A stretch of DNA of 64,000 bases from Natrialba aegyptia DSM 13077 (GTDB taxonomy: Archaea; Halobacteriota; Halobacteria; Halobacteriales; Natrialbaceae), in assembly GCF_000337535.1 (NCBI RefSeq), contig NZ_AOIP01000031.1:62001-126000 (forward strand), written 5' to 3'. How positions within the stretch are numbered: position 1 is the stretch's first letter; every line of letters begins with the position of its first letter. The position numbers were made by a program, and so were the translations under genes. This document shows, piece after piece, positions 55,572 to 56,136 of the stretch. The notes below the pieces were generated by a model. That model was not told where the DNA came from. It was given only the letters and a program-made list of their open reading frames with translations, and made no database searches.

Positions 55572-55917
55572 GCGGTGCGTTTACGGACGAAGCCGGAATC
55601 GACAATCGGTATCTCCAAGCGATCGGTCGATCTTCTGCGGCGTGAGACAGTAATTGAGGAGCAGAACGGGATCCTTCCCGCCGCTCAGCGGTAGATATAG
55701 ATCATTACCGATCAACAATTAGGACGGAAGCCATAACAGGGTACGAAAGTGCCCCGGATGCAGGAACATCCGAGACGTGGCTTCCAATCGCGGCTGAAGC
55801 CATGATTGCGTACATTCTCACGGGATATAAACATCCCGCACGCCTGATGCATCGTCACAAACAGCGAGCAGCGGCGCTATTCTCCGAGAGAGCCAGAGCA
55901 ACGGGGTGGCAGTCGGT
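55572..55917. other. 346-base intergenic region holding a structured RNA
   Basis: Several short hairpins follow the membrane protein gene: CGGGA-TCCT-TCCCG (55667-55680), CCGC-TCA-GCGG (55681-55691) and CGGTA...TACCG (55689-55710). The strong RNA candidate at 55726-55838 comes next. The 80 bases before the gene at 55918 look ordinary. Confidence 0.6.
55726..55838 (+). ncRNA. Candidate structured RNA: three-way junction plus two hairpins
   Basis: P1 is GGAAGCCA (55726-55733) with TGGCTTCC (55778-55785). Inside it P2 is GGGTAC-GAAA-GTGCCC (55739-55754) and P3 is CGGATG-CAGGAA-CATCCG (55755-55772), directly abutting so they should stack; the junction strands are TAACA and AGACG. A third hairpin, AATCG.GGC-TGAA-GCC.TGATT (55786-55807), and P5 CGGGAT-ATAAAC-ATCCCG (55821-55838) follow. 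The G-U pairs in P2 and in the third hairpin would be C/A mismatches on the other strand, so the plus strand is transcribed. It could be a free RNA, a leader or riboswitch of the gene at 55918, or a transposon-end RNA remnant. Confidence 0.55.
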
Positions 55918-56136
55918 ATGACCGACGAGTTCGCGTCGGATCGGTCGACCGCCGGAACGGACAGCGGCTCGGACAATAGTGCCGACCGAGACGACAGCGC
56001 CGGTTCGGACGACCGGCGGCGCTGTCCCCGCTGCGACACGCCCATCCTGCGGACCACCGTGATCGGCCCGACCGAGGCAATCGCCGGCCCCTGCGGCTGT
56101 CGCGTCGCCCCGCCGGTCCCCGACAGATCCGACTAA
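55918..56136 (+). CDS. Small zinc-binding protein
   Basis: 72 residues. An Asp/Ser-rich N-terminal half is followed by RRRCPRCDTPILRTTVIGPTEAIAGPCGCRVAPPV: the CPRC and CGC pairs make one zinc ribbon. ATG at 55918; a GTG four codons earlier is possible. It lies 80 bases after the structured RNA and may be controlled by it. Function unknown. Confidence 0.6.
   Translation: MTDEFASDRSTAGTDSGSDNSADRDDSAGSDDRRRCPRCDTPILRTTVIGPTEAIAGPCGCRVAPPVPDRSD

Follow-up and report, generated by a model that had tools for sequence, protein, structure and literature searches.

Positions 55726-55838 of the window, the 64,000-nucleotide stretch of Natrialba aegyptia DSM 13077 DNA analysed here, encode on the plus strand a structured RNA that is probably a cis-acting leader controlling the translation of a two-gene mRNA, and that belongs to what would be a new haloarchaeal RNA family working, most likely, as a two-state switch. 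The family is present in most of the haloarchaeal genera that were sampled, a single genome carrying as many as 37 copies, and it provides a testable, covariation-supported candidate for a start-codon switch. It joins HRAMP-like operons and tyrosine recombinases with dozens of small, so far uncharacterised genes for zinc proteins in one candidate regulon, and could also reveal how translation initiation is controlled in haloarchaea when a leader has no Shine-Dalgarno sequence.

The RNA folds around a predicted, covarying three-way junction

The plus strand of the element folds with a minimum free energy of -48.4 kcal/mol (z = -5.9), a value equalled by none of 200 dinucleotide shuffles. A first-pass annotation, made from the letters alone, had proposed a structured RNA transcribed from this strand; all the helices that it described were found, and plus-strand transcription is supported; the minus strand gives a weaker fold (z = -3.2). 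The closing stem, P1, is longer than the 8 bp given there, with 9 bp formed between the 5' strand GGAAGCCAT (55726-55734) and the 3' strand GTGGCTTCC (55777-55785), and 98.0% of its helix cells are paired across copies. P1 encloses the two directly abutting 6-bp hairpins of the original description, P2 (55739-55754, GGGTAC-GAAA-GTGCCC) with its GAAA loop and P3 (55755-55772, CGGATG and CATCCG around six bases). P2 carries double changes G-C/A-U and U-A/C-G in 21 sequences each, and P3 is paired in 99.4% of cells with changes among G-C, A-U and C-G. In longer copies, as read from the aligned sequences, P1 is extended by GUCUC/GAGAC. Just below the P3 loop, most copies carry either C...A or U...G (compare the window at 55755-55772 with L129), an apparent wobble-like pair exchange under a variable tetraloop.

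Two further hairpins had been described downstream of the junction, and both can indeed fold. The fourth (about 55786-55807) is, however, better seen as one alternative fold, since it is variable among copies and overlaps a start codon, and the last one, P5 (55821-55838, CGGGAT-ATAAAC-ATCCCG), lies inside an open reading frame, within its codons 7 to 13. Counted from the start codon, P5 begins at +20 in 55 of 78 copies; it is paired in 96.1% of cells and shows 18 U-A/C-G and 13 G-C/A-U double changes. Its shift from GGGA/UCCC to GAGA/UCUC alters the encoded peptide (G to R and P to L); P5 thus changes consistently with pairing at the cost of the peptide, and is therefore conserved as RNA.

Across 78 distinct Natrialbaceae copies, 97.4% of the paired cells hold standard pairs, compared with 93.5 ± 0.2 in shuffled alignments and 23-46% in slid registers, and double-change cells number 109 versus 32 ± 7 in shuffles; the alignment was fitted to the covariance model, which somewhat favours the structure, and the same pairs are visible in a plain MAFFT alignment. 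The compensatory changes in homologues that the first-pass annotation had named as a check are thus present, and on this basis P1, P2 and P3 are predicted to form a covarying three-way junction. That annotation had recognised no known class in the fold, and Rfam 15 agrees: no family reached its gathering score in the window, where the best local matches had E-values of 1.8 or worse, at chance level. No tRNA or tmRNA was found, and a search of the open-access literature returned no description of this RNA (subscription papers might hold one), so that the family is apparently undescribed.

A TATA-like element would place the RNA at the 5' end of its mRNA

Upstream of P1, at 55691-55701 of the plus strand, lies the TATA-box-like promoter element GTAGATATAGA, which the A/T profile over copies places 26-31 bases 5' of the stem. 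In the 78 Natrialbaceae copies the A/T fraction rises to 0.83-0.99 at -31 to -26 from the first base of P1, forming a sharp TATA block, and a weaker peak appears at the same position in 77 copies from other families. The usual archaeal TATA-to-start spacing would put the mRNA start at P1. From this block and this spacing we infer that transcription starts near the first base of P1, which would make the RNA the 5' leader of the mRNA. Together with the order of the ORFs described below, the promoter supports the earlier proposal that the zinc-ribbon gene has a leader or an element of the riboswitch type; as a riboswitch in the strict sense, the RNA is a candidate.

The RNA runs into a small ORF that overlaps the zinc-ribbon gene

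The sequence GCC-ATG at 55799-55804 opens a 39-codon ORF (MIAYILTGYKHPARLMHR..., 55802-55921, plus strand; MIAYILTGYKHPARLMHRHKQRAAALFSERARATGWQSV), whose TGA stop at 55919-55921 overlaps the ATG (55918) of the 72-residue zinc-ribbon gene (55918-56136, CPRC...PCGC) in an ATGA arrangement. The element had been placed 80 bases ahead of this gene, which does lie downstream, but those bases are no plain spacer because the small ORF runs through them into the zinc-ribbon start. The internal start codon and the small ORF had escaped the first-pass annotation, as had the alternative helix over the start codon, the multi-copy nature of the RNA and its order-wide distribution, which are described below. 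Eight bases 5' of the zinc-ribbon start, the plus strand reads GGGGTGG (55903-55909), a Shine-Dalgarno-like motif, and G-rich stretches occupy about this position in many other copies.

This organisation is widely kept. The order RNA, small ORF and CPxC...PCGC zinc ribbon is found in 64 of the 78 Natrialbaceae copies, and 61 of these 64 share the same start and overlap, with the small ORF ending no more than 11 bases from the start of the second ORF (offset -1 in 37, -5 in 16 and -7 to -11 in 8). In all 61 the first stop of the upstream frame falls on the second start, versus 1/61 and 0/61 for the other two frames; as the 61 copies were chosen by their overlap, the informative point is how the other frames differ, and because of this the small-ORF frame is very probably translated. 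Short stop/start overlaps of this kind are those of coupled gene pairs, and termination-reinitiation coupling at overlapping ATGA pairs is an established archaeal mechanism (PMC6728339).

In the host genome, all 15 zinc ribbons of the same family have an RNA copy no more than about 400 bases upstream, and 4 further RNA copies lack an intact zinc ribbon. Neither the small ORF nor the zinc ribbon reaches the cut-off of any Pfam or NCBIfam family. The structure model of the zinc ribbon is a confident small beta fold (pLDDT 86), which gave no function because its comparison with the PDB returned no match below E 0.5; the best, non-significant ones include ribosomal zinc ribbons, and PDB matches by sequence reflect only generic CPxCG knuckles.

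An alternative helix could bury the start codon

Immediately 5' of the start codon, the strand GAAGCC (55796-55801, plus strand) repeats part of the 5' strand of P1 and can therefore pair with the P1 3' strand, which is thus common to P1 and to an alternative helix, P1'. This competitor strand is kept in Natrialbaceae. The P1' pairing runs on through the AUG (GACGUGGCUUC with GAAGCCAUG), and each of its pairs is retained in 72-99% of Natrialbaceae copies, save for one mismatch column just past the AUG. Over the 78 copies, the start codon is mostly paired in P1' only. The calculated energies of the two helices are close, with a median difference of -0.7 kcal/mol favouring P1 and 59 of 78 copies within 5 kcal/mol, on parameters of the 1 M NaCl type and not for molar KCl. 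In the window copy P1 is favoured by 9.5 kcal/mol, so that this copy may be mostly in one state, or its start codon may be masked instead by the short P4 hairpin.

The best evidence is that of other families, whose sequences are different and yet show the three strands changing together: beside GGCUUC/GAAGCC there are GGUCUUC/GAAGACC, GGGUUC/GAACCC, GGCUUUC/GAAAGCC, GGGUCGU/ACGACCC, GCUUGG/CCAAGC and UGUCUUUC/GAAAGACA. In two permutation tests, in both of which the P1 3' strand was picked solely by its pairing to the P1 5' strand, the complementarity between this strand and the pre-start bases beat all permutations (327 versus 228 ± 13 in the first; 5.22 versus 4.53 ± 0.10 of 6 pairs, over 36 distinct hexamers, in the second), with the proviso that the control is imperfect, since one strand is common to P1 and P1' and related sequences count only partly as independent. 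The P1 5' strand might also have been copied for some other reason, which could account for part of the conservation seen before the start codon. Because the pairing covaries across families, it points to two mutually exclusive folds that would free or bury the start codon. At one locus, L195, a TTG apparently stands in the place of the start codon, and the ACAGACC preceding it can pair with that copy's own P1 3' strand, GGTCTGT.

A multi-copy family spread across the Halobacteriales

The 4.6-Mb host genome holds 19 copies by BLASTN, with many in related genomes, and the matches from an exact-sequence scan of named genomes were almost exclusively in Natrialbaceae (Natrinema, Natrialba, Halovivax, Halostagnicola, Natronorubrum and others). 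The window copy, together with its gene, is also present in related species (L009, L010). The covariance search of haloarchaeal genomes that the first-pass annotation had suggested was performed with models built over three rounds (R1, R2 and R3). R2 recovers the same 19 clear host copies, with E-values from 4e-27 to 3e-16; R1 and R2 missed many distant copies, for which R3 was needed. At E <= 1e-4, on E-values that are rough owing to a short calibration, R3 detects an order-wide family, with matches in 241 of the 392 Halobacteriales genomes sampled and in 73 of their 95 genera, and among 247 genomes spread across the phylum all 24 positives fall inside Halobacteriales. Copy numbers per genome go as high as 34 and 37.

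In Haladaptatus the copies lie mostly on big plasmids, ahead of genes annotated as SWIM zinc-finger proteins. Phage records held no match for this Haladaptatus form, and IMG/VR gave 0 matches to one exact pattern, a result with which divergent viral copies remain compatible. At L054 (genome G017) and L055 (G027), the RNA occurs two or three times within 1-4 kb, in closely similar copies, which suggests that local duplication is one source of the high copy number. At L015 (G048), the small ORF and the C-terminal half of the zinc ribbon seem to have become one reading frame through a deletion (MIAFILPGYKRPSR...ASPCGCVVSPE), which suggests ongoing gene loss and turnover of copies.

Downstream genes differ between families

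In other families the same layout is found again in front of unrelated genes. There, outside Natrialbaceae, one of the first two ORFs usually encodes a small Cys-rich protein, probably zinc-binding, of several unrelated kinds (SWIM, MGCRKCGC-type, CPVCGRPV-type and C2H2-like). By a strict motif rule, a Cys-rich ORF follows 51 of 77 copies versus 6-9% of the ORFs in flanking DNA, a rough ratio in that this background includes spurious ORFs. Genes for tyrosine recombinases and PadR-like regulators also lie behind the RNA, as do operons that contain RAMP-like and DnaQ-like genes. The recombinase (integrase) genes follow the RNA directly or after a small ORF (L325, L331, L336, L340, L137, L162), in several families including Natrialbaceae. 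In genomes G168, G091, G123, G082 and G258 (L323/L342, L322, L332, L326/L344 and L167), the RNA heads RAMP-like operons containing a Zn-like ORF, a Cas7/RAMP-like ORF (PFPLSGWLRHG...LGGARNFG), a second RAMP-like ORF, a DnaQ-like exonuclease and HNH/HTH genes. Neither Pfam nor PADLOC named the RAMP-like and zinc-like ORFs; the operons look like HRAMP, an array-less CRISPR derivative of haloarchaea (named in PMC8730458).

A probable start-codon switch and its alternatives

In the mechanism that we favour, transcription would begin at or beside the 5' end of P1 and the leader would fold as the three-way junction of P1, P2 and P3. The P1 3' strand would then pair either with the 5' end, forming P1 and leaving the start codon outside the stem, or with the pre-start strand, forming P1' with the start codon inside. 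P1 would be the ON state and P1' the OFF state; in Haloferax, a synthetic riboswitch that works was designed with its start codon buried in a stem as the OFF state (PMC8241225). P5, at +20, might position or pause the initiating ribosome. The first ORF would be translated up to a stop that overlaps the zinc-ribbon start, and termination-reinitiation would hand control on to the zinc-ribbon gene. Some signal, be it a small molecule, an ion condition or a protein, would shift the balance between P1 and P1'. Of these steps, the sequence supports the leader position, the junction, the alternative helix and the coupled overlap; the direction of control, the part played by P5 and a trigger are inferred. 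Since different families have different downstream products, the product is unlikely to serve as the common trigger. The many zinc-binding genes behind the RNA make Zn2+ a candidate, one drawn from the gene list only. No metal transporter was seen among the downstream ORFs inspected, which leaves a zinc-homeostasis switch without direct support, and a metal-homeostasis regulon was rejected on the same observation. Tentatively, the family might be a new multi-copy, order-wide class of archaeal riboswitch, in which a small ligand or ion, Zn2+ being one candidate, sets the P1/P1' balance and so gates translation initiation across a large regulon that takes in zinc proteins, recombinases and a CRISPR-derived system.

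An autoregulatory leader, in which the zinc ribbon or the basic peptide of the upstream ORF would bind the three-way junction and feed back on its own translation as in ribosomal-protein leaders, would fit the presence of the RNA before every zinc ribbon of the same family in Natrialbaceae, the RNA binding of several small zinc ribbons, and the small beta fold of the model with ribosomal zinc ribbons among its best, non-significant, PDB matches. We consider it doubtful, as the same RNA elsewhere precedes unrelated proteins (SWIM proteins, recombinases, PadR-like regulators, RAMP-like operons), so that the product is no common ligand; a lineage-specific version is possible. The very stable folds and the broad, functionally mixed set of downstream genes would also suit a leader that does not switch at all and instead shields the 5' end of the mRNA, sets the start codon beside a helix and lets P5 pause the ribosome, for constant low or well-timed translation. 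Such a leader gives no reason for the pre-start strand to change along with the P1 3' strand from family to family, and we hold it to be improbable.

Far less credible is that the RNA is a free trans-acting sRNA, an IS200/IS605 omega-RNA remnant (both raised by the first-pass annotation) or a mobile repeat, for, despite its many dispersed copies, multiple also on Haladaptatus plasmids, and the one TnpB gene found between two of them, at L040, its position is tied at one end to a promoter and at the other to a translated ORF and the start of a gene, the window copy recurs with the same gene in related species, the helices show compensatory changes, the RNA continues into an ORF that is conserved and, in 61 of the 64 gene-linked copies, shares bases with the zinc-ribbon gene, which does not suit a free sRNA, and the copies sit between promoters and genes, not at TnpB ends, so that the overlapping or adjoining tnpB 3' end at a transposon right end that marks an omega RNA is missing. 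At L040 itself (host contig C31:103798-108715), the TnpB-like gene is full-length, the two RNA copies are about 1.8 kb apart, and one of them is degenerate and lacks a start codon.

Comparison with known systems

The preferred reading, a start-codon switch in a two-gene leader, can be set beside several known systems. The C(P)XCG zinc-finger micro-proteins of Haloferax (PMC11241148, PMC6562870) are likewise small haloarchaeal proteins, with two CPXCG-type motifs, whereas the ribbon in the window reads CPxC...PCGC, falls in no Pfam or NCBIfam family at cut-off and is linked to a leader. In their organisation, Brz-Brb and Bp4-OE2447F of Halobacterium salinarum (PMC3184054) are similar in that a small basic ORF overlaps a small acidic zinc-finger gene and is co-transcribed with it; for OE2447F, transcription starts about 134 bases ahead of the gene, and the basic ORF lies in that interval. 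Brz-Brb, however, regulate bop transcription, and we saw no leader structure described for these pairs (PMC3184054). Ribosomal-protein leaders, including a predicted S15 leader in Halobacteria (PMC7247131), are also cis-acting structured mRNA leaders found in haloarchaea, but here the downstream genes encode no ribosomal proteins and vary among families, and the RNA has no Rfam match.

The closest likeness is with translational riboswitches, of which the fluoride riboswitch of T. kodakarensis was named in 2021 as the only riboswitch experimentally determined in archaea (PMC8241225). As in these, a conserved, aptamer-like fold with covariation would lie in the 5' leader of a regulated mRNA, judging from the TATA position and the downstream genes; P1 closes a junction, and its 3' strand is shared with an alternative helix over the initiation region, the mutual exclusion of the two helices being read from the sequence. 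The RNA differs in that the alternative helix covers the start codon itself and not a Shine-Dalgarno sequence, in its additional conserved hairpin within the coding region and in its many copies per genome. With ligand binding a candidate feature, we describe the RNA as one that would work like a translational riboswitch and do not file it as one.
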